Positions 3,560-28,399 of a stretch of 30,119 nucleotides of DNA are shown here, piece after piece. This stretch comes from a virus, in IMG/VR virus record IMGVR_UViG_3300035019_000002, positions 1 through 30,119 of that record. The stretch is one strand, 5' to 3'. Positions within the stretch are counted from its first letter, which is position 1. The number at the start of each line of letters is the position of its first letter. The notes under the pieces are model-generated. The model ran no database searches. It was not told the origin of the DNA and worked only from the letters and a program-made list of their open reading frames with translations. A program made the translations under genes and the position numbers.

Positions 3560-4050
3560 GCCACCACCCGATCAAGTTCTTTCAGCACAAACCGAGCGAG
3601 ATAGCGGTATTGCAAGCTGCCAGTTTCTTCAGCTTTGGGTTCAAACATGCGAACGGCAAACACAGCAGGGTAGGCAATGCCGCCGCCAGCGATTGTGGTG
3701 ATGGGTCCGGCTGCTTGTCTTGTGGGTGCGATCTCATCTTCAACGTAATGCTGGATTGTATCTGAAAGATAGATTCGAGAATCTTCCTGGTTGCGCCGAT
3801 GTCGCTCTGCTCTAGCAAAAATTGCCCACAGCACTCGCCATTGCTCAACTCCGAGGTAGGTTTGAATTGTCCAAACAAACTTTGCCTCAAATAGCGAACC
3901 GTCGCTGATTGCGTTGCCGAACAAGCTGTATTCCGTGGTTCCGGTTTCGCCAAGGATTCGTTCATAGCCACCTTGGGCAAAGCGTGAAGACGTGCGATCG
4001 CCCAAGGCCAGTGAGAAGGCATCAATGCTAAGGGTCAAGGTTCTGGTCAT
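3556..4050 (-). CDS. Small tail protein following the tape measure
   Basis: This 164-residue soluble protein begins MTRTLTLSIDAFSLALGDR and contains GETGTTEYSLFGNAISDGSLFEAKFVWT, which looks beta-rich. No catalytic motif is visible and no family is recognised with certainty. Its position, one gene after the tape measure and overlapping the hub-like gene by 4 bases, matches the small distal-tail or tail-tip adaptor found there in many siphoviruses. That role is inferred from order only. The start follows directly on the 3-prime arm of a 6-bp stem (leader element 2) with no Shine-Dalgarno sequence next to it. The leader overlaps the remains of an older tape-measure reading frame. Confidence 0.65.
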   Translation of the reverse strand: MTRTLTLSIDAFSLALGDRTSSRFAQGGYERILGETGTTEYSLFGNAISDGSLFEAKFVWTIQTYLGVEQWRVLWAIFARAERHRRNQEDSRIYLSDTIQHYVEDEIAPTRQAAGPITTIAGGGIAYPAVFAVRMFEPKAEETGSLQYRYLARFVLKELDRVVA

Positions 4051-4082
4051 AGGGCAACGCTCAAACTGCCCTATCTTTCCTA
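4051..4082 (-). promoter_or_regulatory. Leader element 2: TAGGAA plus stem-loop touching ATG
   Basis: The minus strand reads TAGGAAAGAT, then stem AGGGCA (4072-4067), a 10-base loop, then TGCCCT (4056-4051) immediately before the ATG at 4050. The AGGA at 4081-4078 is 27 bases from the ATG in linear sequence and 5 when the stem is folded. The old tape-measure frame ends inside the loop, at TGA 4063-4061. Confidence 0.6.
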
Positions 4083-4165
4083 CCCTCTAGGCTAGAATCT
4101 GCGCTGCGGTTCGTGTAGTCGGCGTAGTTGTCGATCTGGGTTTGGCTGTTGAACGTCAGGCTGCG
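4061..4165 (-). pseudogene. Remnant of an older tape-measure 3-prime end
   Basis: Read on the minus strand in the frame beginning CGC AGC CTG ACG TTC (4165), this stretch encodes RSLTFNSQTQIDNYADYTN, then RSADSSL, and continues to a TGA at 4063-4061. The present tape measure ends with RSLSFTTQDPVSDYAKFMN, then ESAGSSLRNL (6279 downwards). In the 26 aligned residues from RSL to SSL without gaps, 13 are identical: R, S, L, F, Q, Y, A, N, S, A, S, S, L. Several others are conservative (S/T, V/I, D/N, F/Y). The homology starts at the dioxygenase stop codon (4156) and overlaps it by about 9 bases. I read it as the original 3-prime end of the tape-measure gene, left behind when cargo entered. Confidence 0.75.
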
Positions 4166-5022
4166 GCATTGCCAAATCGGAAACTAGACGAAACAATACC
4201 GCCAAAGAGGTTTTCATCATGATAAACACAAGCGCTTGGATCGTTTTGGGCCGCGCCAACTGTGACCATCAACGGTAGTAAATGGTCTTCCTGTGGGTGA
4301 GCTAATCGTGCAGCAGGTGCTTTAGCCCAGTGGATAAGTTTATCAACTCGCTGTGTTGGCTCAGATTGCACCAGCGTCTGCTGAAGCCAATCATCAAATT
4401 GCTGTGATGCTTCTGCACCTTTTGACCCAAAATCCCTGAGATTGTGATAGCTCAATCCGCTACCAATAATGAGTACCCCTTCCTTCCGCAATGGAGCCAA
4501 TGCTCGTCCTACTTCCAAATGAAGTTTTGGGTCATAACCTCGCTTGAGCGAAAGCTGAACGACAGGAATCTGTGCTTGCGGATACATAGGGTACATCACT
4601 GTAAAAGTCCCGTGGTCAAAGCCGCGGTTCGGGTCAAGACGGGCTGAATATCCAGCACCCTGAATCAGCGATTGGATGCGACTTGCCAATTCCGGTGAAC
4701 CTGGGGCACTGTACTTAACTTCGTATGTATGCGCGGGAAATCCTGAATAATCGTAAATCATCGGAGGATTTGGACTCGCCGAAACAGTGAAGTCTTCTTC
4801 CTCCCAATGCCCGGAAACTACTAACACTGCCTTGGGTGCCACTCCTAATTGGCGAGGGATATCCTGTAACGAAGTTTCGAGGCGATCGAACATTTGACCA
4901 AAATGGTCTTTCATGTAGGGCCAGGGGCCGCCACCGTGAGAAACAAAGTAGGTCGGAAATTCAGGCATTATCATATCGAAGTTCTGTTTGATGGTATTGG
5001 CTACGAGGTCTATATAACTCAC
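4156..5022 (-). CDS. LigB-family extradiol dioxygenase, 4,5-DOPA dioxygenase (YgiD) type
   Basis: The protein has the marks of the DODA/YgiD branch of LigB-type ring-cleaving dioxygenases: SHGGGPW near residue 29, VVSGHWEE, GFDHGTFTVMYPMYP followed by IPVVQLSL, VLIIGSGLSYHNLR and HPQEDHLLPL. In this family conserved histidines, including those in SHG, GHW and FDHG, hold the catalytic metal. The substrate is a catechol-type aromatic, but the physiological one cannot be told from sequence. The frame can start at GTG 5022 (288 residues), but family members usually begin a few residues before the SHG motif. An ATG at 4974 or 4968 (MPEFPTYFVSHGG) is therefore a likelier start. It is divergent from a LysR gene, a classic regulator-target pair. 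It is metabolic cargo unrelated to virion structure. Confidence 0.85.
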   Translation of the reverse strand: MSYIDLVANTIKQNFDMIMPEFPTYFVSHGGGPWPYMKDHFGQMFDRLETSLQDIPRQLGVAPKAVLVVSGHWEEEDFTVSASPNPPMIYDYSGFPAHTYEVKYSAPGSPELASRIQSLIQGAGYSARLDPNRGFDHGTFTVMYPMYPQAQIPVVQLSLKRGYDPKLHLEVGRALAPLRKEGVLIIGSGLSYHNLRDFGSKGAEASQQFDDWLQQTLVQSEPTQRVDKLIHWAKAPAARLAHPQEDHLLPLMVTVGAAQNDPSACVYHDENLFGGIVSSSFRFGNAAA

Positions 5023-5043
5023 TATATCTGTGCACTATTAGTT

Positions 5044-5066
5044 CATCAATAGATAGAATATTGATG
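5044..5066. promoter_or_regulatory. Probable LysR operator, perfect inverted repeat
   Basis: CATCAATA (5044-5051) and TATTGATG (5059-5066) form a perfect 8-base dyad with a 7-base spacer, in the gap between the divergent dioxygenase and LysR genes. It contains ATC/GAT half-sites of the kind LysR-type regulators bind. It is the only strong dyad in the gap and could control both promoters. Confidence 0.6.
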
Positions 5067-5101
5067 GATCATTTCCTATTAGTTGATATTGCTTGGGCAA
5101 A

Positions 5102-5998
5102 GTGGATACATTAGTGAGTATGCGGGTGTTTCGCAGAGTTGTAGAACTGAAAAGCTTTGTGGCTGCCGCCGATCGCATGGAAATGTCTGCTGCAATGGTT
5201 AGCAAACACGTTATGCACCTAGAGCAGCATTTAGGCGGTCGCTTGCTCAATCGCACTAGTCGGCATTTAAGTTTGACTGAAATCGGGAAAGTCTACTTTG
5301 AACAATGTTGCGAGATATTGGATAGCCTGGATGAAGTGGAAGCAACGGTCAGCCGAGCCACAATTGTACCGAGTGGGGTGCTAAAAATTAGTGCCCCAGT
5401 TTGGTTTGCCAATCGCACATTTACTAAGATACTTGCTAATTATCAGGCCCAGTTTGCCGCAGTCTCCTTGGACATTGACTTAAGTGGGCGAATGGTTAAC
5501 GTAGTAGAAGAAGGGTTTGATGTGGTATTGAGAGTGACTCAATCTCCTCCTAGTAACCTGATTGCACATCCAATTGCACCTGTTCCATTTTGCATAGTAG
5601 GCTCTCCGTCATACCTTCGCAAAGCTGGATACCCTTTAAAACCGAAAGATTTATCGCAGCACGCAATGATTACTTATTCGTATTTGTCACTTTCAGAGGG
5701 TGAACTGCCCTTTGAAGGACTAACTGGGAAAGAAAGCGTTAAGATTGGGCCGTCGGTGCTGCGGACTAACAATGAAAATCTGATGCACAACGCGGTAATA
5801 GATGGGATGGGTCTGGCATTCTTACCAACTTGGCTGATTGAAGACGATATTGCTGCCGGGCATCTAGAGAGGGTAATGCTGGATTATCGCTTGCCAGCTA
5901 ACATGCTTTATGCCATGTATACTAGCCGCAAATATCTTTCATCGAAAGTGCGAACCTTCGTTGATTTTATTGCTGAATGTAGCGAGCTAAAAAACTAA
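5102..5998 (+). CDS. LysR-family transcriptional regulator
   Basis: The N-terminal winged helix-turn-helix is clear: MRVFRRVVELKSFVAAADRM, then MSAAMVSKHVMHLEQHLGGR and LLNRTSRHLSLTEIG, matching the LysR DNA-binding domain over about the first 65 residues. The rest fits the periplasmic-binding-like effector domain (SGVLKISAPVWFA, LDIDLSGRMVNVVEEGFDVVLR, GMGLAFLPTWLIEDD). GTG 5102 gives the usual beginning (MDTLVSMRVF). TTG 5093 and ATG 5120 are alternatives, and none has a strong ribosome binding site. It probably regulates the divergent dioxygenase, with an aromatic or quinone-like effector as a family-level guess. It is transcribed against the phage genes. Together with the dioxygenase it forms a self-contained cargo inserted at the 3-prime end of the tape-measure gene. 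Confidence 0.9.
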   Translation: MDTLVSMRVFRRVVELKSFVAAADRMEMSAAMVSKHVMHLEQHLGGRLLNRTSRHLSLTEIGKVYFEQCCEILDSLDEVEATVSRATIVPSGVLKISAPVWFANRTFTKILANYQAQFAAVSLDIDLSGRMVNVVEEGFDVVLRVTQSPPSNLIAHPIAPVPFCIVGSPSYLRKAGYPLKPKDLSQHAMITYSYLSLSEGELPFEGLTGKESVKIGPSVLRTNNENLMHNAVIDGMGLAFLPTWLIEDDIAAGHLERVMLDYRLPANMLYAMYTSRKYLSSKVRTFVDFIAECSELKN

Positions 5999-6127
5999 CT
6001 CTTGAGAAGAGCAGTACAGCTATTGCAGTCAGGCGATCTGAGCGTTTTTGCTCATCTATCCATTCCCGTTAAAATCCAAGGCATAAACACAAGAGAAAGC
6101 TCTCGGAAACTTTCCTGCCCTCTCTTT

Positions 6128-6169
6128 GCTAACCTACTTTCCAACTGGGCTAACCTACTTTCCAACTGG
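6128..6169. repeat. Two perfect 21-bp tandem repeats at cargo/tape-measure junction
   Basis: The 21-base unit starting GCTAACCTACTTTCC occurs twice without gap at 6128-6148 and 6149-6169. It lies in the 191-base gap between the LysR stop and the tape-measure stop, close to the right boundary of the LysR/dioxygenase cargo. A short plus-strand frame from TTG 6002 would read it as ANLLSNW twice, but nothing else supports a gene. Apart from this repeat I see no feature in the gap. Confidence 0.75.
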
Positions 6170-6189
6170 CAAGAGTTGGTTTGGGAGGA

Positions 6190-9100
6190 TTAAAGATTTC
6201 GTAGGCTGGAGCCTGCTGATTCATTCATAAACTTGGCGTAGTCACTCACGGGATCTTGAGTTGTGAAACTTAAGCTGCGTGGCGTGTTGGCCAGCTTTTC
6301 AATGCGATCGGTCATCTGCTTCAGCGCCCCGATTACATCGCCGCCGCTCGTTGCGGCTTTGTTCACTGCCGATGCCACGCCGATGGCATTTGGTCCTGAT
6401 TTGAAGCTATCAAGTTTACTAGTCAAGTCAGCTACCTCACCAAACCCGCTCTTAGAAGCAATCAGGCTGAGGAATTCCTTCTCCCTGCCAGAGCTGAGGC
6501 TGAGCGCATTCAGTACCGCTTCTTTCTGCCCTTCCTGCCCACGGAACTCATTGCCCGCGATCGCTTGACTAAATGCACGACGGGCATTGTCGTAAGCGGT
6601 AATGTCGCCGCCCGAGAGAACCAGTCCTCCAGACGCGCCTAGCCCTCCACCCCCAGACGATCCCGCCCCTCCAACGCCTCCACCCCCAAATCCTTGAGCC
6701 AAAAGCTGATCTTTCAGTTGTGCCTGCTCGCGGTCTCTCGCACGTCCATTCTTCGCATTCTCCGCCTGTAATGCATCACGGGCAGTCTGTTGTTGCACTG
6801 ACTGAGCTTGTTTCTCTTTAGCAATCCGCTCGTCGATCAGCGCGTTCTGCTCCTGATTAATGTTTATATTTTCACGAGCAAAACCTTGCGACTCCTGAGC
6901 AAAATTCAGATAGTCTTGCGCTGACGAAATTTCCTCTGCATTACCCGACTTCTTTGCTAAGCGCAATTCTTTCTGGGCGTCCAGAACGTTCTGTTTTGCA
7001 GCATTCTCAGCGACTTTTGCTTCGTTAAGTGCCTTTCTTGCGGAAACCTTCTCAAGCTGTAATTGAATCGCTAACGATTCCCGCTCAAGTTGTTGCTGAG
7101 CCTGCATGGCCGCTAACTTCTCCGCATCGGCTTCTCGTTCCAATGCCTGACGATTCTGGGTCAGAGTTAGTACATCGGTTGGCTGTGCTCCTGATACCCC
7201 ACTGCCGCCAAGCTGCTGCTGTAGCACTGCTCTGAGGTTGGCTCCGGTATCTTTCGACTGGAGCGCTTTCACCCCGTCAATATTCTCGTTTGTGCGATCA
7301 ATGCCAATTTTGAGCGTACTTTGACGGGCATCCGCGATCGCTTGGGTTAATTTGAGTTCTGACTCTAAAGCGGTTTTTCGGTTATTAAGAACTCGTGTTT
7401 CAGCCTCAGCATTTGCCTGAATGCCTTTGAGTTGAATCTGTGCATCCAGTTCAACAATCCTATCCCGTTGCGCTCTGGAGTTCTGGTCAATTTGCCGTTT
7501 GCGATCCTCCGCCTCCTTATCAGACAATACTTTGACCGTTTCCTGGGTGGCTTTAGGAGCCTCAATATCAAACCCCAAATCCTTGAAGAAGTTAAATTTC
7601 TGCTGCTCTCTGGAGTCAATTGGGCGATTCACCACTTGAGCGGTGTTGAGTCGTGTTACTTCAGCATCTTCCTTCTGAAGTTGGTCGAACCGTTGCTGTG
7701 CTGCATCCCGTTCTGCCGTTGCCGAAGCAATCTGGGTTTTGATGCCCACAAAGCCGCTGCTGTCGAGGCCACCTAACTTAAAGTTAATGCTGCGATCGCT
7801 GAGCTGAGCATCAATATTCGCATTCACCAGTTTCGACGTGCGCTCAAATTGCTCAATGATCTTACGATTCGTCGCCTCTCTCAGGGCAAGCTCTTGCTCT
7901 GCCTGACGTACAGACAAATCAGCCAGATTATTGCTGAAATCCTGACTACGCCTCTCGTATTCCTCCTTCTTAACAATGCCACGGGCAAACGCCGACTCTA
8001 ATTCATCCAACTGAGATTGAGCGCTGGATTTCTGGGCGTTGGCCGTATTTAAGCCAATCTGCGCTTGGGCGATACCAGCATCCTCTTCGGAAATGGACTT
8101 GCCAATCTTCTGTCGAATCAGCCCCACCGTTGCAGCCGATTCCTGCTGTTTGATTTGAGCTTCACGTTTACGGGCAGAGCGCTCAATTTCAGCCAGTTTC
8201 GCGGCTTCGGCGGCTTTGACAGCAGCTACTTCGTTCTGAGCATTCTGCACCTCTTGATCACTGATACGATCGCCAATCTCACGCCGCTGTTTCTCGTATT
8301 CTTCAGCAGACAATGTGCCCGCTGCAAATGCTGCCTCAATTCCGTCGAGTTGTTGCTTGGTGCTGTCGAGTTCGGCTCTGCCCTTGGTGACTTGCAGGTT
8401 AGCACTTTCAGCACTAGCATCGGCTTCATAAATTGATCCAGTCTTTTGTTTTTCGAGCAATCCAATCTGGGCTGTGTTTGAGTCACGCTTAATCTGTGAT
8501 TCTCGCTCACGATTCGCTTTCTCAATTTCGGCAAGTTTGGCTTGCTCTTCTGCCTTACGCACGGCAATGCGGGCGCTGGCTCCATCCTTCTCCAGTGCTG
8601 TTTGCTGATCTTGAGCTTTTTTATAGTTGATCAGGTTGTCGATAATGGGCTTGGCGTCACTATTAGCAGTCCCTTTGGCCAGCTCCAAATCTGCGATCGA
8701 GGAGTCAAGACTCGCAGTTCTGCCCGTTGAGCCAATCCCGGCAGTGGCGAGTTTATCCTTGATCTCTGGGTCTTGCAGCTTTTTGGCCAGCTCATCCAGA
8801 ATCTGCTTATTGCCCTCAAACTCAGCACTGGCTTTATCCAGTTCACGGCGTGCCGACTGCACAGGAGCACTAATGCTGGCATTGGTATCACTGCCAAATT
8901 GCGCTAGTTGTTGTGTGAGGTCTTGCGTAACTCCTTTGTTAAACGCATTATCCGACTGGCGCTTGACTTCTTCCAACTTCGACGCCATTTCAGCAAAGGC
9001 TTTATTGAGATCTCGTGTCTTATCCGTCGTGATGCCAAGCTTACCCTGCAAGCGGTCTAGCTCATTTTGAGAATTCTGCAACCGCTGCAAATCGCCTTCA

Positions 9101-12100
9101 AGAATTGATTTTTGATCACCCGTGAGAGCTGGATTAGTGAGAGAATTTTTTGTGTTGTTGATTTGCGATGTAATCGCCGCCTGACGTTCAACGAATGGAT
9201 CGATTAATTTCTTGCGTTCTGCCTGCTTAGTCTGGATTTGCTCATCGAGCGCTTTCAGTTCACCCTTGTCGGCATTGGGCGATGCTGCCAAGCGGTTTTT
9301 ACGATTCTGGAGAGAACCGATTTCTTGATCTAGATTTTTGGCTTGCAGCAATGTATCAGTGTTAGTGCTGCGATCGAATGCTTGCCCGACGAGAGATTGG
9401 TTTTTCTCTCGAAAGCGATCGAACTCCAGAGATTCACTCTGCTGCTGCAACTCCTCAACCGTGGTGAAGCGTGCGAAATCCTTGTCTAGTCCAACAGTCT
9501 CATTAAACTTAGTATTGAGGGCGTTAGAAGCTTTGATCAGGTCATCTGTTTTAAACGAAAATCCCAATTGATCCAGCCCTGTTAGACCTAGGAAGCCAAA
9601 ACTAAGATCAAAGCCCTTCGATGTGCTTTTTCCTGGCTTAGGTCCAACTTCGCTAACTTCGCCTCTCGCCCGTTTTGCAGCATCCTCAATCCGTTTGAGG
9701 CTGGCTTCACCCTGATCGGCAAAGTCTTTAAACTGCTTGCCCTTTTCACTGAGAGAAAATACTTCAGTGGTCGATCGCAATGTCTCCATTCCAGCCGTGA
9801 TAAGGGCAAACCCGACCAGGAACTGAGGATTGAACAACGTTGTCGCCACTTTTGTGACTGCACCAGCCAGGGTGGTGAGTCCTGTAACGGCGAGTTTAGC
9901 TAATCCTGGAATCCCGACCAGTGACGTAACAAATTGACTCCCCAGAAGTAGAGCCGCCGTTCCGATCACTTTGACAAGCACATCTCCTCTCTCAGCAACG
10001 AGGTTCAGCGCTCCGGCCAGCCCGTTTGCGCCTATCTGAACAGCAGGCTGAAAAGCTGTACCGCTTGATTCTTGGAATTTCTGGAATGCGCTTTCCAATC
10101 GGAAGATGGAAGACTGAACATTCTTCGAGGCATTCGCTGCTGCCCCACCAAACTCAATATTTAACTGCTGGGCAAACTTGGGTAGAAAGTCCTTCGACGT
10201 AATCGATCCGGTTTGTAGTAACTTATTCAGCTCTTGTTCTGTGACTCCGATCGCACGGGCAGCCACGCCGAATGCACCTGCTAAACCTGCATCCCCGATT
10301 TGCCCTTTCAATTCTTCAGAGGACAAAACGCCCTTCGAGCTAATCTGCTGCAATGCCGTGAAGATGCGCCCTTGCTGATCACCATTCAAACCGAGCACGG
10401 TTGCGGCTGATCCAACCCCTGAAAAAATGTCTTGAGCTAATGCGCCACCTTCTGCACCTTTCAGCGATGCTCTCAGCTTGGCATAGCCATCTTGAGCCGT
10501 TTTAAGTGGAATGCCTAATCGTTCCGTTTCCTGACGAACAAAGGCAAGCTCTTTCGCCGCCTGCGCTGGACCTCCCGCCGCAAAGTTCAGCGCCGTCTTG
10601 AGGTTATCCAGTCGGATGCTGGCTTTTAGTGCGGCTCCACCAAACTCAAACACTAACGTTTTGAGGAACGATAAAGCTTGAAAGGCAAGGAACCCTTTCA
10701 CAACACTGCCAAGCTGAGCACTTAAGCCAGGAAAAACGCGATCGGCGAGTGCGGCAAACGGTTTCTCAGCATTAAAGCCAGAACTGAAGAGGGCTTTAAG
10801 TGTTTTGAAATCGTTAATAATGCCGCCAAACTTGCCCTCAAACTTTGCGCCAGCCAGAGCGCCTGACAAGGATGCACCAAAGCCGCTCTTGGCACTGCCA
10901 ACCGCTCGCCCTGCGATTTCTAGCGGGTTGAATGACTTACCTGCGCGAACCTCCTGAACACTCTGCCGCACAGAACCAAAGACGCGATCGCGACCAGAGA
11001 TAAATGAATCCCTTGCCCCAGAAGCCACTTGTGCCAGCGTGTCACGCGGCGTCACTCGCTCACCTTGCTTGATGCGATCAACGAGTGAAGCGATAGGATT
11101 GCGAATGCTGCTGATCACGCCTGCGATCGCATCTTTAGCAACACCAGCCGGATTGACGATTGTGCGCTGGGCATCCCGTTGCAAATCTCTGCCAACAGAC
11201 ACGCCAGCATTTGCCGCGACGGTTGCACCAGCCGCATAGGTCGTGCCCAGATTGGTGAGACGTGGATCAATGCGACGGGTATCGAGCTGCTCGTTATACT
11301 TACCCGTGTCGAATCGGTTGAGGGTATTGATCACGCCTGCTTGCGATCTTCCAACTCCGAAGCCACGATTGAAAAACTCAGCTTCTTTCGTCAGTTCGGA
11401 AAATCTAGCTTTTAGGCTTGAGAAGAAGTCCTTTGTGCCCTGCACCCGCGATTGAATGCCGTCGAGCAGCAATGCGCCTGCTTTGCGCCCAATTTCCCCC
11501 ACATCTTTGTAGAGCACCGGCGCAATCGGTTCGAGAATCGGTCGCGCGGCACGAGCCGCCGCAATACCCCCGGCAATCCCCGCTGCACCCAAACCCGCAA
11601 CGCCCAACGGAGATGATGCGATCGCACCTGCACCCGCTCCTAATTGAGCCAAACTCGGCAGAGCGAATCCACCACCTTGAGAACCTAATCCTGCTAATGC
11701 AGGCAATGCACCAATGGCATAAAATCCGTTTGTTCCGGTCTTCTGCCCAACATCTGAGCCTTGGTTAAATGCCTTAACAACCTGATCGAGTTCTTGCTTC
11801 TGGGCGTCAGTCTGAGGATTTGCAGGTTTCTCGAATTTTCCAAACCGAGACTCAACAGCACTCAGTTGGTCTTTTACCTGCGGTCGTAGCCCGCCAGAAC
11901 TGCGAATAAAGCCTTTGTAATTCGCCAGAACACCTGTGATGTTTTTGCCCAGTTTTCTGGCCAGGTCTTGTTCGATTTTGTCTTGCTCATCATCCAATGC
12001 TTTTAGCAGTGTTTGGAGCCGTTTTGCCTTCTCTGGACCTGTGGCAGATTTGGCTGCATCAAACTCAGCCCTGAATCGTTCCTTATTCGCCTTAACTTGA

Positions 12101-14238
12101 GCCTGAAATGCCTGCTTAGTGGGTTCAACACCTGCTTCTAATAATCCAGCTTTGGGAATTCGAGTGCCGATTCTGCTCTCATCAGAAACAGGCTCAGGAA
12201 TGGTATTACGCTGACGTTGCTGCTGAGCAAATGCGGCTGGGTCTGCCTCGAATGCCCTGCGATCTGAAATGACTCTGGCACTATTGCGAGCACGTTTGCG
12301 AAATGATTGCTGTTTGCGTTCGTAGTCCTGCTGGGCTTTGTCTATTTCTGCATTAGCCGTTGCAATTTCTTTTTCTAGCGCTGCCTGCTTGCGTGCCAGA
12401 TCACTTAAACTCTCGCGAACAGTGGCCACATCGCGATCGGTCTTAGCAGTAATTCCCTTATCGCTAAACAGCTTGGGAGATTGATAGAGGAAATTTTGCG
12501 TGTCCTGTTGAAAGGATTCTGACTTGAGGTAGGACGGTGCAAGGTGTCCGGCTCCGGTCGAGTCGGTGTAGAATTTTGAGTTCTTTGAAGCGAGACTAAA
12601 TGGGCTTAATGGGTCTAGTGCTCCGATCGAGGCTTGGTTGTTCTCTGGGTTCGGGTTGAGAATTCCAAATTGAGGTGTACCAAACGATACTGCCCGTGAG
12701 GGCACATCTAATTTTTTGAGAATCTGCTGAGCATCTGAAGCTGCAAAGCCGCCTGCTGAGTGCCCAACTAAATCAATTTGCGAGCCAGGATTTCTGAGGT
12801 AGCGAGCATAGGCTTGCGCGGCAATCTCTTCAGCGTCCTTATTGCTGCCTACCAGCCCATTTTTGGCAGTATTGGTGATGGCATTCACCAGCCAGGGAAT
12901 TGGTTGTTTTAGTGCATCAAATCTGACATCAGTATTTGTGTTTGCAACAGCAGTGACTTCACTCTGATTGAGGAATGGCTTGAGGGATTCGGCAAGCTGT
13001 TGTGAACCTTGGCCACCTTGCCCCGCATACCCTGCTGAAACAAACGCAAAGCGATCGCGATCGCTTTCCTTTAAGGTTGGCGCAATCTCTTCTGCTCTGG
13101 CCTTAACCCGCTCGGCTGAGGCTTGATAGCCCTCTTGATAGCGGCGGCGTGCCCCACCGATGATCGTGCCATCGTCGGCAGTGTCTTCGTAGAAGCTGAT
13201 ACCAGCCCCAACCACCTGCTTAAACTCTTGGCGATTGGCAACTGCCCCCGACTTTTCGGCAACGGTGCTCACTCGTGAAATGAGTCGACGGGCAGAAACT
13301 TCACCAATTTTTTCAAAGGTGAAGCCAAACTCGTTCTCTAGTTTCTTCTGAAAGCCACCCGCGAAGCTGGATGAAATCGAGACGCCAATCCCTTGCTGAA
13401 ATCCAGAAATCACCTGCCGTGCAGGTCCAGTTGCAGCAGCGATGCCTTGTTTGAACAGTCCAGCCCCGGTCTTAAAGACAGCTTCAAAGTCGATTAGCCC
13501 AGTTTTGAACCCACCGACGATCGCATCTTTCATCAGTGGCAGAACTGCACCACCAATCGACTCAACAAAACCGCTATAGAGAGACGTTGCGGTGCTGGCA
13601 ACTGGTCCCCGCTCTTGAGTTACAAATGATTTGGCAGAGACGGCACTAACAATCGAAGAAGTAGACTGTGCGATCGCACTGCGAATTTCAACAGAATCGA
13701 CATTCAGCTTCGCGCTGGGGCTTTGCGGCAGAGTGTATCCACCTGTAGTGCTAGAAATGGGAGCCTGTGTTGCTGCTGGCGCAATTGCTCGATAAACGGG
13801 CTGCTGTGGAACGTTGATCCGAACCTGCTGCCCGTTCAGCGTGCGAATGTTGGCTTGCAATTGCTCAAGCTGTTGATTCAGGCGCTGAATCGATTGCTCA
13901 CTTTTGGAGGTGTCGATCTCAATGGTGAGTTTGCGCCCAATCGTTAGATCTCGCAGTTGCGTTTGAAAATTACCCGTATTCTTAAGCTGAACATCAACCG
14001 CGATCGCAGGAAGCTTAAGGTCTTTCAGCTTACCTTTCAGCCCATCAATATCAGGGCAGATTTTAACGGGGATACAGTCCAGTTCTAGCCCTTTCAGTTG
14101 TTTCTTGAGGGATGCAGTGTTGAGCTTCACTTCAATTGGGGCAATACCCACGGTTTGAAGTTCTTGCAAGTCACGATTGAGCTTCTCTCGCCCAACAAGA
14201 ACCACCTCGATCCCGATTGATCCAACAATTTCAGTCAT
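6190..14238 (-). CDS. Tail tape measure protein with embedded alpha/beta-hydrolase domain
   Basis: This 2682-residue protein sets tail length and is probably partly delivered during infection. Residues 1-100 hold three related strand-helix units (APIEVKLNTASLKKQLKGL; CIPVKICPDIDGLKGKLKDL; PAIAVDVQLKNTGNFQTQL). Residues about 390-590 look like a lipase-type alpha/beta hydrolase: RFAFVSAGYAGQGGQG, nucleophile elbow GHSAGG with Ser494, LDPLSPF with Asp542 and GAGHLAPS with His565. Hydrophobic Gly/Ala-rich helices follow near 860-920. Residues about 1200-1400 match the conserved tape-measure domain (RLDNLKTALNFAAGG; ISSKGVLSSEELKGQIGDAG; EQELNKLLQTGSITSKDFLP). Long coiled coil fills about 1480-2510, including two 113-residue repeats, then a glycine linker near 2516-2543. 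The C-terminus is a diverged copy of a remnant found beyond the LysR/dioxygenase cargo. The ATG is preceded by leader element 3. Confidence 0.95.
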   Translation of the reverse strand: MTEIVGSIGIEVVLVGREKLNRDLQELQTVGIAPIEVKLNTASLKKQLKGLELDCIPVKICPDIDGLKGKLKDLKLPAIAVDVQLKNTGNFQTQLRDLTIGRKLTIEIDTSKSEQSIQRLNQQLEQLQANIRTLNGQQVRINVPQQPVYRAIAPAATQAPISSTTGGYTLPQSPSAKLNVDSVEIRSAIAQSTSSIVSAVSAKSFVTQERGPVASTATSLYSGFVESIGGAVLPLMKDAIVGGFKTGLIDFEAVFKTGAGLFKQGIAAATGPARQVISGFQQGIGVSISSSFAGGFQKKLENEFGFTFEKIGEVSARRLISRVSTVAEKSGAVANRQEFKQVVGAGISFYEDTADDGTIIGGARRRYQEGYQASAERVKARAEEIAPTLKESDRDRFAFVSAGYAGQGGQGSQQLAESLKPFLNQSEVTAVANTNTDVRFDALKQPIPWLVNAITNTAKNGLVGSNKDAEEIAAQAYARYLRNPGSQIDLVGHSAGGFAASDAQQILKKLDVPSRAVSFGTPQFGILNPNPENNQASIGALDPLSPFSLASKNSKFYTDSTGAGHLAPSYLKSESFQQDTQNFLYQSPKLFSDKGITAKTDRDVATVRESLSDLARKQAALEKEIATANAEIDKAQQDYERKQQSFRKRARNSARVISDRRAFEADPAAFAQQQRQRNTIPEPVSDESRIGTRIPKAGLLEAGVEPTKQAFQAQVKANKERFRAEFDAAKSATGPEKAKRLQTLLKALDDEQDKIEQDLARKLGKNITGVLANYKGFIRSSGGLRPQVKDQLSAVESRFGKFEKPANPQTDAQKQELDQVVKAFNQGSDVGQKTGTNGFYAIGALPALAGLGSQGGGFALPSLAQLGAGAGAIASSPLGVAGLGAAGIAGGIAAARAARPILEPIAPVLYKDVGEIGRKAGALLLDGIQSRVQGTKDFFSSLKARFSELTKEAEFFNRGFGVGRSQAGVINTLNRFDTGKYNEQLDTRRIDPRLTNLGTTYAAGATVAANAGVSVGRDLQRDAQRTIVNPAGVAKDAIAGVISSIRNPIASLVDRIKQGERVTPRDTLAQVASGARDSFISGRDRVFGSVRQSVQEVRAGKSFNPLEIAGRAVGSAKSGFGASLSGALAGAKFEGKFGGIINDFKTLKALFSSGFNAEKPFAALADRVFPGLSAQLGSVVKGFLAFQALSFLKTLVFEFGGAALKASIRLDNLKTALNFAAGGPAQAAKELAFVRQETERLGIPLKTAQDGYAKLRASLKGAEGGALAQDIFSGVGSAATVLGLNGDQQGRIFTALQQISSKGVLSSEELKGQIGDAGLAGAFGVAARAIGVTEQELNKLLQTGSITSKDFLPKFAQQLNIEFGGAAANASKNVQSSIFRLESAFQKFQESSGTAFQPAVQIGANGLAGALNLVAERGDVLVKVIGTAALLLGSQFVTSLVGIPGLAKLAVTGLTTLAGAVTKVATTLFNPQFLVGFALITAGMETLRSTTEVFSLSEKGKQFKDFADQGEASLKRIEDAAKRARGEVSEVGPKPGKSTSKGFDLSFGFLGLTGLDQLGFSFKTDDLIKASNALNTKFNETVGLDKDFARFTTVEELQQQSESLEFDRFREKNQSLVGQAFDRSTNTDTLLQAKNLDQEIGSLQNRKNRLAASPNADKGELKALDEQIQTKQAERKKLIDPFVERQAAITSQINNTKNSLTNPALTGDQKSILEGDLQRLQNSQNELDRLQGKLGITTDKTRDLNKAFAEMASKLEEVKRQSDNAFNKGVTQDLTQQLAQFGSDTNASISAPVQSARRELDKASAEFEGNKQILDELAKKLQDPEIKDKLATAGIGSTGRTASLDSSIADLELAKGTANSDAKPIIDNLINYKKAQDQQTALEKDGASARIAVRKAEEQAKLAEIEKANRERESQIKRDSNTAQIGLLEKQKTGSIYEADASAESANLQVTKGRAELDSTKQQLDGIEAAFAAGTLSAEEYEKQRREIGDRISDQEVQNAQNEVAAVKAAEAAKLAEIERSARKREAQIKQQESAATVGLIRQKIGKSISEEDAGIAQAQIGLNTANAQKSSAQSQLDELESAFARGIVKKEEYERRSQDFSNNLADLSVRQAEQELALREATNRKIIEQFERTSKLVNANIDAQLSDRSINFKLGGLDSSGFVGIKTQIASATAERDAAQQRFDQLQKEDAEVTRLNTAQVVNRPIDSREQQKFNFFKDLGFDIEAPKATQETVKVLSDKEAEDRKRQIDQNSRAQRDRIVELDAQIQLKGIQANAEAETRVLNNRKTALESELKLTQAIADARQSTLKIGIDRTNENIDGVKALQSKDTGANLRAVLQQQLGGSGVSGAQPTDVLTLTQNRQALEREADAEKLAAMQAQQQLERESLAIQLQLEKVSARKALNEAKVAENAAKQNVLDAQKELRLAKKSGNAEEISSAQDYLNFAQESQGFARENININQEQNALIDERIAKEKQAQSVQQQTARDALQAENAKNGRARDREQAQLKDQLLAQGFGGGGVGGAGSSGGGGLGASGGLVLSGGDITAYDNARRAFSQAIAGNEFRGQEGQKEAVLNALSLSSGREKEFLSLIASKSGFGEVADLTSKLDSFKSGPNAIGVASAVNKAATSGGDVIGALKQMTDRIEKLANTPRSLSFTTQDPVSDYAKFMNESAGSSLRNL
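7892..8569 (-). repeat. Tandem 339-bp (113-residue) repeats inside the tape measure
   Basis: Two consecutive in-frame units share KLAEIE, R-x-SQIK or R-EAQIK, a G-I/L-L/I segment, QLDGIEAAFAAGTLSAEEYE versus QLDELESAFARGIVKKEEYE, then a charged helix. The CTCGTATT encoding part of EEYE lies at 8293 and at 7954, exactly 339 bases apart. A third, diverged unit may begin downstream (ALREATNRKIIEQFERTSK). Unit duplications that keep frame in a coiled coil would directly lengthen the tape. Boundaries are approximate. Confidence 0.7.
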
Positions 14239-25261: not shown

Positions 25262-25717
25262 ATGAATGGACGGACGATCTACCTGCTGGCGGCACTGGCT
25301 GGCGGCGCTATTCTACCTGTTCAAGTTGCGCTGAACACGCTGTTGCGACGCTATGTGGGTGAACCCATGCAGGTGACCTTTATTTCATACCTTGCCGGAA
25401 CCTTAGCATCGCTCGCGATTTGCTTCGCTGCACGCTATCCCCTTCCCGCTTCGACTACGTTGGCTCAAACCTCTTGGTGGATGTGGGTTGGCGGCTGCTT
25501 AGGCACGTTGTATGTCTGGTCAACTATCTTCGCAACACCGAGGATCGGAGCCGCGCTGGCGCTAGCACTGACGATCGCCGGTCAGATGATTGCAGCCCTA
25601 TTTCTGGATCACTACGGCGCGATTGGACTGGCGAAGTATCCAGCCAGTCCAACGCGAATTGCAGGAGCTGTACTGGTGGTTTTGGGCGTTTCGTTAGTTG
25701 CTTATGCAAAGCGATAA
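25262..25717 (+). CDS. DMT-superfamily transporter, YdcZ (DUF606) family
   Basis: This 151-residue inner-membrane protein has about five hydrophobic segments (IYLLAALAGGAILPVQVAL; VTFISYLAGTLASLAICFAA; WWMWVGGCLGTLYVWSTIFA; IGAALALALTIAGQMIAALF; IAGAVLVVLGVSLVAYA). The pattern GAILPVQVALNTLLRRYVG, GGCLGTLYVWSTIFATPRIG and LTIAGQMIAALFLDHYG is that of the small YdcZ family, whose members act as dimers. The substrate is unknown. GAGG lies 7 bases before the ATG. It is divergent from marR and probably controlled by it. It ends 83 bases before the minor head gene, which is convergent with it. Confidence 0.9.
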   Translation: MNGRTIYLLAALAGGAILPVQVALNTLLRRYVGEPMQVTFISYLAGTLASLAICFAARYPLPASTTLAQTSWWMWVGGCLGTLYVWSTIFATPRIGAALALALTIAGQMIAALFLDHYGAIGLAKYPASPTRIAGAVLVVLGVSLVAYAKR

Positions 25718-25800: not shown

Positions 25801-26454
25801 TCACGCGGGTATCTCGCTCAAATACTCAGCTGTGCATCTACAGTTTGCACCACATTGGCAATTCTGCTTCGGCAATGGCAGAGACCCGATCGCAACCACT
25901 CCACGAGCTGCGTAACGAATGCAATCCGGGCATGATTCCGAGGCATGCAGACGCCTTCGCATGTAGCGATCGCCGTTGTCTTTTGAGTTTTGCTGCTCTG
26001 CCTGTGAGAAGCTGATGCCGGAAGCATTGGCATACAGTTTCAGGCGTTGCTCAAACTGGGCACGGGTCATCGTGCCTTTTGTTAGGTCTGTGGCGAATTG
26101 TCTAAGGTATTTGTACTGCGATCGCAACTCCCGACCTACGGCTAAATAATCTGCCGATGACATGCGATCGACTCCACCACGCCCCAAAATGGCTTGATTA
26201 ATGTGCAGCGTCTTAATCGTCTTGGCAGTGGTTTCCTGCCAGGTTCGCAGGCTGATTTTGCCATCTGCCAGCAGCCCGCCCACCGTTTGCAAATCTGCTT
26301 TGACTGCCTCCACATATCCCTTCTGGAGATTGAGCATCGCCTCTCTGGGAACGAACTTGCCCGAATCACCGTAGCGATAGCGCTGCAATCGAGCATCCCA
26401 AGTAAAGTTCGGGGAATCTAGTCGAGTTGGCAACAGGTCACTAAGGTTAACCAT
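25801..26454 (-). CDS. MuF-like minor head protein
   Basis: This 217-residue protein is helix-rich in its first 165 residues (FVPREAMLNLQKGYVEAVKA; LQTVGGLLADGKISLRTWQE; YKYLRQFATDLTKGTMTRAQ). Its Cys-rich end reads SCPDCIRYAARGVVAIGSLP, then LPKQNCQCGANCRCTAEYL. This ending, with CxxC, CxC and CxC cysteines, is typical of phage minor head (SPP1 gp7 / Mu F-like) proteins that follow the portal. They are usually a few copies per virion and help DNA entry or head assembly. Its start overlaps the portal stop by 8 bases, and AAGGGG lies just upstream. Confidence 0.8.
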   Translation of the reverse strand: MVNLSDLLPTRLDSPNFTWDARLQRYRYGDSGKFVPREAMLNLQKGYVEAVKADLQTVGGLLADGKISLRTWQETTAKTIKTLHINQAILGRGGVDRMSSADYLAVGRELRSQYKYLRQFATDLTKGTMTRAQFEQRLKLYANASGISFSQAEQQNSKDNGDRYMRRRLHASESCPDCIRYAARGVVAIGSLPLPKQNCQCGANCRCTAEYLSEIPA

Positions 26455-28399
26455 CGAGCAGCCCCTTAAACTTGTCAGGAGCCGATCGCTTCCAATCGTT
26501 CAACGCAGCATCAATATCGGCTTGGTCAATATCTGCGATCGCATCATACTCACCTTCACTCAGCACCTCACCTTCAATCTTCAATGGCTCAGCAGCGTCG
26601 GTTTTGTACTGGTTGATATCAGAAATTGATATCTCACGAATTCCACCAAAGAACTCAGCAGGCATCACTTGTTTGTAAATTTGCTCTGCCTGCGCTGCCG
26701 CGTCAAAGCCCAGCATCAGCTTCTCTTCATCGAATTGCCCGTTGATGTGTTGCGCGATCGCATAAACTTTTTTGCTGGCAAAATTGCTGCCCAAATAGCA
26801 ATCCACCGCCATGCCGTCCGCACCCTTCGTCTTCTGGATGTGCCCGTAGGCAACGGGCAACAGCCTCCCGTGACGCTGATCGAAGGGTAGATATTGCAGT
26901 CCTAACTTGAACCCGTGGAAATCAATGATCTTCTTTGTGGGCGTGCTGTCATCCGTGCGTAACGAATCCTGTTTCTGCCCGGGCTGCTTCTGCTGATTCG
27001 GTTGTTGAGGTTGAGATTGCTTTGCTTCCATCAACTTCTGGCTCGGTGTAACAGGCAACTCATTCGAGAGGATTTGTCGCTCGATCGAGTACTCGGAACC
27101 TCCCCACGCCCCTTGCCGGACTTCCTCTTGAGAAAGCGTCCCCATTGCGATCGACGGCGCATCAACTTCTCTAGTCTGCTTACCGCGTAACTCAACCTGT
27201 TCTTTCAAGTTCAGCTTCAGCACTGACCTATATTTGAGGCTCCATCCTTCCGGCACTCTGCCACCCGTGCAGCCATTCTGAGCTAAGAAACTAAGGCGAA
27301 AAAATTCGCTGACCTGTTCATCGATCGCTTCAGCCTGATAATCCTCAACACAGTCCGCCCATTCGTATTTGTCACCTTCAGAACTGTTGGAGAGCGCAGA
27401 TTTTTGAGAGCTTCCCCACAGTTTGGTGGGGGGCATGGCGGCGGCGGCTGAGGTGTCATCTTTCATCGCCTCGATTAAGTCCTTCAACCCGCTAAAGTTG
27501 CGGCTGACATACTCGCCGTCTTCGTTCTCGCTATCCATCGCCAATCCACCCAGGGCAGATTTAGAGAGCAAAATTGCTTGGAAGCGCTTCAGAATATCGT
27601 CTTGCTTTCCTTGCAGAATCAGTTGTGCCAAGCCTTTAAGCTTGTAGATGAACACATCGTAATCCTGCACCATACGGACGCTGTATTCGATCGTCGTCAA
27701 ATACTTGATGAATGACTGATAAAAGCTCAGCAGCACCGAGTCGTGATAGTGGCTGTTGTAGCTCAGCATGTCACCATAGAGCCGCTTACCCGGAAATCGC
27801 AGAACCCGCGATCGGTGAATCCGCCCAAACGTCATGCCGTTCCCTAGCCCTTGGTTCTGAGGCAACGCCAGACGGTAAAACTCTGGGTTTCCGGGTCGTC
27901 CTGTGTTGGTTTCTGGGGTGAGTTGATATCGAGTGACAACTTCTAGCCACGAAATCTGCCGAATGTTTTTCTCATTGATTGGCTGTTCTGGGGGCTGCCC
28001 GTCATCAATCCCCATCACAATGAAGCCGTCACCTTCGAGCCGTCCAAGGATGGCTGCCTCTCTCACGTCATCACGAAGCTTCAAATCGTTAGCATACTGA
28101 ATTGCTTTAGCAGGGATGTTTTTGCGTCCTTTGCCGACGGTAATTTCCAGCCATGTTTTACTTGTGGCGGCTTTGGGGAGTAGGTCTACAACTTTCTCGC
28201 ATAGCTTGACATTTCGATAGAGCGCGTGAAGTTCCGAGCGATCGAGCGGGACAACAATTGTGTTAATTCCTGTGTCGAGGAATTTGTCGCGCCCCGCTTG
28301 CCCCAGCCCAGTGTTACGGTTGCCAATGATCGAGCCAAAGGCATTGAGTAAAGCCCCATCATTCCGTACAAGGTCAATTGCCGTTGTTTCGTCACTCAT
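26447..28399 (-). CDS. DUF1073-type portal protein fused to a pyrophosphatase-like domain
   Basis: This 650-residue protein has an N-terminal portal part (GAWGGSEYSIERQI; LGRLEGDGFIVMGIDDGQPP; SRVLRFPGKRLYG; YHDSVLLSFYQSFIKYLTTI) matching the DUF1073 portal group over about residues 1-460. A Gln/Pro-rich linker follows. Residues about 490-610 (IIDFHGFKLGLQYLPFDQR; PVAYGHIQKTKGADGMAVDC; YLGS; INGQFDEEKLMLGFD) resemble the inorganic pyrophosphatase-like domain found in phage polyvalent and head proteins. The usual GADGDxVDVYIG is here GADGMAVDCYLG, so one acidic position of the signature is lost. The portal forms the DNA channel at the capsid vertex, and the role of the extra domain is unknown. 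Leader element 8 precedes the ATG, and the minor head gene overlaps the stop. Confidence 0.85.
   Translation of the reverse strand: MSDETTAIDLVRNDGALLNAFGSIIGNRNTGLGQAGRDKFLDTGINTIVVPLDRSELHALYRNVKLCEKVVDLLPKAATSKTWLEITVGKGRKNIPAKAIQYANDLKLRDDVREAAILGRLEGDGFIVMGIDDGQPPEQPINEKNIRQISWLEVVTRYQLTPETNTGRPGNPEFYRLALPQNQGLGNGMTFGRIHRSRVLRFPGKRLYGDMLSYNSHYHDSVLLSFYQSFIKYLTTIEYSVRMVQDYDVFIYKLKGLAQLILQGKQDDILKRFQAILLSKSALGGLAMDSENEDGEYVSRNFSGLKDLIEAMKDDTSAAAAMPPTKLWGSSQKSALSNSSEGDKYEWADCVEDYQAEAIDEQVSEFFRLSFLAQNGCTGGRVPEGWSLKYRSVLKLNLKEQVELRGKQTREVDAPSIAMGTLSQEEVRQGAWGGSEYSIERQILSNELPVTPSQKLMEAKQSQPQQPNQQKQPGQKQDSLRTDDSTPTKKIIDFHGFKLGLQYLPFDQRHGRLLPVAYGHIQKTKGADGMAVDCYLGSNFASKKVYAIAQHINGQFDEEKLMLGFDAAAQAEQIYKQVMPAEFFGGIREISISDINQYKTDAAEPLKIEGEVLSEGEYDAIADIDQADIDAALNDWKRSAPDKFKGLLDG

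Follow-up and report, generated by a model that had tools for sequence, protein, structure and literature searches.

The tape measure protein (TMP) encoded in the window, by which we mean the whole stretch of 30,119 nucleotides analyzed here, carries a hydrolase domain in its amino-terminal, head-proximal arm, before the TMP_3 core. Sequence conservation and structure prediction together assign this domain, with high confidence, the alpha/beta-hydrolase fold and a Ser-Asp-His triad. It is most likely a real, folded serine hydrolase that is active, and profile and model comparisons place it near the lipase/cutinase group, outside every named family.

The window constitutes an entire contig of a 5.97-Mb genome in which phycobilisome genes are also present, and the host is therefore a cyanobacterium. 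The contig contains terminase, portal, protease, cement, capsid, tape measure and tail-like genes, and no host flank is visible along its 30 kb; thus, it probably represents a prophage truncated on both sides. The cyanophage setting given in the preliminary description needs amendment in this respect, as the surroundings are those of a cyanobacterial genome contig (probably a prophage) and not of an isolated cyanophage. The carrier is recognized as a tape measure by the TMP_3 core within a very long ORF, downstream of the head and tail genes (Table 1). The hydrophobic stretches of the TMP itself are located beyond the hydrolase domain.

Table 1 Features of the window TMP and of its predicted hydrolase domain (positions in the window; aa, residues of the TMP)
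Feature	Position	Strand	Basis
Tape measure protein, 2682 aa, unbroken ORF	6190..14238	-	Pfam TMP_3 4.4e-21; PHROGs tape-measure families to 4.9e-29
TMP_3 conserved tape-measure core, aa 1202-1389	10072..10635	-	Pfam match
Long hydrophobic stretch of the TMP, aa 1419-1458; membrane-inserting part possible	9865..9984	-	Kyte-Doolittle maximum 1.71 over 19 residues
Alpha/beta-hydrolase domain as modeled, aa 359-609: leading helix and hydrolase core	12412..13164	-	AlphaFold2; PDB Foldseek and VIA matches
Strand and probable oxyanion-hole loop FAFVSAGYAGQ, aa 397-407	13018..13050	-	Motif present; Gly403 kept in 17/19 copies
Nucleophile elbow GHSAGG, aa 492-497 (Ser494 codon 12757-12759)	12748..12765	-	S in 16/19 and 30/37 copies; strand-helix junction in model
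Predicted catalytic acid Asp542, in LDPLSPF, aa 541-547	12613..12615	-	D in 18/19 and 33/37 copies, E in 2 more
Predicted catalytic His565, in GAGHLAPS, aa 562-569	12544..12546	-	H in 18/19 and 32/37 copies
Conserved Tyr570 near the predicted catalytic His	12529..12531	-	Y in 18/19 and 32/37 copies

Elsewhere on the contig, a gene for a LigB-type extradiol dioxygenase (4156-5022, minus strand; PF02900, 1.5e-30) is divergent from an ORF (5093-5998, plus strand) that, read by eye, resembles a LysR-type regulator. The pair (4156-5998) sits between the TMP and the next tail genes and is a possible metabolic cassette in the tail module. A gene for a YdcZ-type membrane exporter (25262-25717, plus strand; PF04657, 1.6e-38) lies amid the minus-strand head genes. 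The portal protein (26447-28399) has a carboxy-terminal segment matching Pfam InPase (PF18823, 1.5e-20), of a type that occurs on other phage head proteins too.

The preliminary description had placed a lipase-like domain at 12470-13075. Its four motifs are all found at the residues it had named, and its coordinates are a good match to the core of the domain, which spans residues ~359-603 within the segment that was modeled. GHSAGG is the sole G-H-S-x-G in the whole TMP ORF. Motif order and spacing alone are weak evidence and were rejected as such, because a loose Ser-Asp-His spacing arises in 3.4% of shuffles of the window TMP; the fuller elbow pattern hhGHSxGG appears in 0 of 2000. The decisive evidence for the putative domain is its conservation in homologues and its predicted fold.

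The AlphaFold2 prediction from a 19-sequence alignment (pLDDT 85.8, pTM 0.85) is an alpha/beta hydrolase, as had been anticipated, and the matches in the PDB agree. In the model (segment numbering), Ser494 comes after strand 129-135, Asp542 after 176-181 and His565 after 196-199. By strand order these are the canonical placements after beta5, beta7 and beta8, and the columns are conserved, which bears out the triad order first read from the motifs. The nucleophile elbow after beta5 and the nucleophile-acid-His order, as given by model and conservation, place the domain in the alpha/beta-hydrolase superfamily. Foldseek comparison with the PDB gives as best matches a lipase (6nkc, 2.3e-5), cutinases and the B. 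subtilis lipase A, while VIA finds minimal lipases, esterases, cutinases and thioesterases at Z 12.5-13.4 over 153-185 aligned residues. A profile of the domain matches a CE5 (cutinase-type) esterase (2.9e-5) and an extracellular lipase (0.006) in the PDB; phmmer with the single window domain returned only chance hits from that database. The best matches among viral models are gp48 and gp47 of phage CL131, assigned from their lengths and position in the CL131 record and not by name, together with a 'Tape measure domain protein'.

Pfam matches of the family members are all weak (Lipase_3, Thioesterase, DUF676, Cutinase and PGAP1). For Lipase_3 (PF01764), the window domain scores 13.2-13.7 bits against a curated cut-off of 22, and the other aligned members reach E 5.5e-4 at best. 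For Cutinase (PF01083), the window domain is not listed, and 5 of its 19 relatives match, up to 1.1e-4. Because these scores stay below the curated cut-offs, the window domain fits no named lipase family.

Single-sequence searches detected distant relatives, at roughly 25-31% identity, in long ORFs of other cyanobacterial genomes, and also matched Aphanizomenon phage CL131. The window domain alone gave no matches in IMG/VR, where profiles and relatives were required; these retrieved several contigs with the domain. Profile search found it in 3 of the 42 genomes of the order and in 11 of the 388 genomes of the class Cyanobacteria (about 3%). Plasmids searched with one relative gave no match, and profile A4 produced a single weak match in genome_contigs, from Chitinophagaceae. 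The cyanobacterial range refers to the sets covered, namely the Cyanobacteria-class genomes, IMG/VR, plasmids and genome_contigs. Weak profile hits that resemble ordinary host alpha/beta-hydrolases or chance (L006, L007 and L013-L030, except L028) were left out, and the full-diversity alignment A1, being too divergent, was set aside for the pattern scans.

The copies are mostly 20-35% identical to the window domain. Ser494, Asp542, His565 and Tyr570 rank among the most conserved columns of the 19-sequence alignment (Table 1). Across 37 copies, the nucleophile column holds G (5), C (1) or E (1) where it is not Ser, and the acid column E (2) or S (2) where it is not Asp. The TMP-borne copies keep Ser/Cys, Asp/Glu and His in 17 of 17 cases, four of which (two in L034, and L050 and L055) sit on unscanned carriers called TMPs from size and layout. 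Values of dN/dS are 0.02-0.15 across six pairs of copies, with dS saturated in some pairs. Some array copies lack the Ser nucleophile and are yet under strong purifying selection by dN/dS, which argues that part of the family serves something other than catalysis. In a tree of the copies, those on MuF-type proteins form one supported clade and those on TMPs mostly cluster; deep support is weak.

The insertion recurs in other cyanophage tape measures. It was found in at least 10 TMPs, in the amino-terminal half of L035, L036, L041-L043, L069, L070 and L072-L074. The domain thus lies inside a tape measure, as originally described, but it is not specific to TMPs, since MuF-type head proteins also bear it, as do separate proteins encoded upstream of the TMP. 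Two carriers, L040 and L071, are recognizable as MuF-type minor-head proteins; the window carrier is not, being a TMP. In CL131-like phages up to five copies are spread across two adjacent proteins, whose genes in CL131 directly precede that of the TMP, and arrays of 3-5 copies are seen in L008 (CL131 gp47 and gp48), L031 and L032. By alignment, one CL131 copy lacks the catalytic His and one, the fourth (AHGYGG), lacks the nucleophile and yet has a dN/dS of 0.016. A hydrophobic helix directly precedes most non-TMP copies and is absent from most TMP-borne ones. The Cys motif C..GK.CG..CIPK...C often precedes the copies in CL131-like proteins, and most TMP-borne copies are without it. A separate observation concerns L077 (6828-10943): the 1372-aa protein encoded there contains LRAT acyltransferase-type domains and a degenerate segment resembling the hydrolase, and it weakly matches NlpC/P60.

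A second module recurs in the amino-terminal arms of these TMPs. TMPs without the hydrolase present one or two HExxH/EExxH modules, several with a downstream LExDAYxFE motif; the module is seen in L087-L090 and, together with the hydrolase, in L069, L073 and L074. Neither module was seen in L091 and L092, two shorter TMPs. The model of the HExxH module is confident in the core. Foldseek yields no significant match for it. Most of its top VIA neighbors are zinc metallopeptidases, with Z scores of 5-7 that are too low to be trusted for assigning a family; judged from the model and these neighbors, it is likely a small metallopeptidase.

From aa 1104 of the window TMP to the end, a second TMP encoded in the same genome (L087, on contig G000:C69) matches it at 67-75% identity; before aa 1104 no similarity is detected, and the HExxH module is there instead. 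Its reading frame (3935-9985 and neighboring frames) is broken in at least two places. Genome G402 likewise has one TMP with the hydrolase and one with the HExxH module. Since TMPs with a related core bear the HExxH module instead, the amino-terminal arm is a slot for interchangeable enzymes. A large survey described strong mosaicism of TMP sequences, yet confirmed no genuine recent case (PMC10684548); the TMP pairs described here, whose cores are related and whose enzyme modules differ, are strong candidates for such exchange. We put forward, tentatively and as something we would sooner doubt than assert, that cyanobacterial phages own a dedicated mobile set of enzymes (the lipase-fold hydrolase and the HExxH module) swapped among TMPs and MuF-type proteins, with the virion delivering the chosen enzyme at entry, and that the lipase-fold module would be the first class of TMP-borne entry enzymes cleaving lipids or esters.

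As to function, we give roughly even credence to the following mechanism as a whole: while the genome enters, an ejected serine esterase/lipase would cut ester or acyl bonds at the host envelope. The domain would be carried in the tail or neck of the virion, be ejected together with the TMP and the DNA, and refold or be released in the host envelope. There it may hydrolyze ester or acyl bonds of membrane lipid, of acylated lipopolysaccharide or of another surface polymer, which would aid the DNA in crossing the envelope, or condition the membrane. That the hydrolase is carried in the virion, is ejected and is catalytically active is what we infer, along with its substrate, its site and the timing of its action. 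A folded domain of ~24 kDa may exceed the width of the tail lumen, in which case it would have to be kept unfolded or be housed at the neck. The neck is where the TMP amino termini of phage 80alpha meet the tail completion protein, and that TMP probably leaves the particle along with the DNA (PMC11661146). By analogy with the neck position in 80alpha, a hydrolase in the head-proximal part of the TMP would reach the host late in ejection. Because MuF-type proteins are also virion components thought to accompany the DNA, we infer that delivery with the genome is the factor common to the two types of carrier. The most likely site of action is the host membrane or an acylated surface polymer, given that the fold is lipase/cutinase-like and that most non-TMP copies have a hydrophobic helix next to them. 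Action on membrane lipid or a host surface ester, as suggested in the preliminary description, is plausible.

The MuF-type carriers fit a cytoplasmic effector as well as an envelope enzyme. A hydrolase injected to act inside the host on a metabolite, an acylated protein or a defense component, or on competing cells in the way suggested for MuF polymorphic toxins, with no role in envelope entry, is in our judgment rather unlikely. The fusion to MuF-type minor-head proteins argues for it, as do the variable toxin domains carried by MuF proteins of temperate phages (PMC5576092), the unrelated modules in the same arm of other TMPs, and, in contractile injection systems, effectors that derive from a TMP and have swappable domains (PMC13277306). 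In MuF toxins, however, the toxic domain is carboxy-terminal and comes with an immunity protein (PMC12226406), whereas the window domain precedes the TMP core and no gene for immunity was identified. The fold and the helices of the non-TMP copies also point to membranes.

Some TMPs mature by proteolysis, the alpha/beta-hydrolase superfamily includes peptidases, and a metallopeptidase-like module occupies the same TMP arm; all three would suit a serine peptidase of this fold that cleaves the TMP or a neighbor in tail assembly or ejection. We regard such a processing role as improbable, as the nearest folds are esterases, lipases and cutinases, many related phages lack the domain, and a TMP protease would not readily account for the tandem and MuF copies. 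There is similarly little likelihood that the fold persists for an architectural role in tail or neck or for ligand binding, with catalysis lost or irrelevant. The few array copies without a nucleophile, such as the conserved fourth copy of CL131, are in line with a relic of this kind, but every TMP-borne copy keeps the triad, in sequences that mostly share 20-35% identity with the window domain.

The proposed ejected envelope esterase/lipase bears on a poorly understood step, namely the passage of tailed phages through both membranes, outer and inner, of Gram-negative and cyanobacterial hosts. The enzymes known in tape measures attack peptidoglycan, and a conserved lipase/esterase-fold module in TMPs is a concrete, mutable candidate for a membrane-acting entry enzyme. 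Enzyme-bearing TMPs are already known. We searched the literature for tape measures with a lipase, esterase or hydrolase domain and found no report, which is not proof of absence.

In muralytic and peptidase TMPs, such as that of mycobacteriophage TM4 with its TMP motif (cited in PMC13277306), an enzyme is likewise built into the TMP, with presumed action on the envelope at entry; the window differs in presenting a putative serine alpha/beta-hydrolase of lipase/esterase type in the amino-terminal arm and no peptidoglycan enzyme. Minimal lipases and cutinases (B. subtilis LipA, Lip_vut1 6nkc and Fusarium cutinase; Pfam Lipase_3, Cutinase and DUF676) share the predicted fold and the order and position of Ser, Asp and His, while the window domain is 11-19% identical to them, falls below the Pfam cut-offs and is part of a virion protein rather than a secreted enzyme. 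The GDSL lipase domains described in tail-fibre ORFs (PMC7468147) are a different case from a TMP-borne hydrolase. MuF polymorphic toxins (PMC5576092) also display a variable enzyme domain on a virion protein, and the hydrolase module itself occurs on MuF-type proteins; the window carrier, in contrast, is a TMP with the module before its core and no identified immunity gene. In the Sle1/Tme effectors of contractile injection systems (PMC13277306), a TMP-related scaffold similarly bears an exchangeable functional domain, but this domain is carboxy-terminal (helical in Sle1) and the system is a bacterial injection system and no phage. A further counterpart is Aphanizomenon phage vB_AphaS-CL131, whose virion proteins have been determined by LC-MS/MS: gp47 and gp48, annotated as hypothetical, hold four homologous hydrolase domains immediately upstream of the TMP gene, as separate proteins with hydrophobic helices and Cys motifs, whereas in the window the domain is part of the TMP itself.
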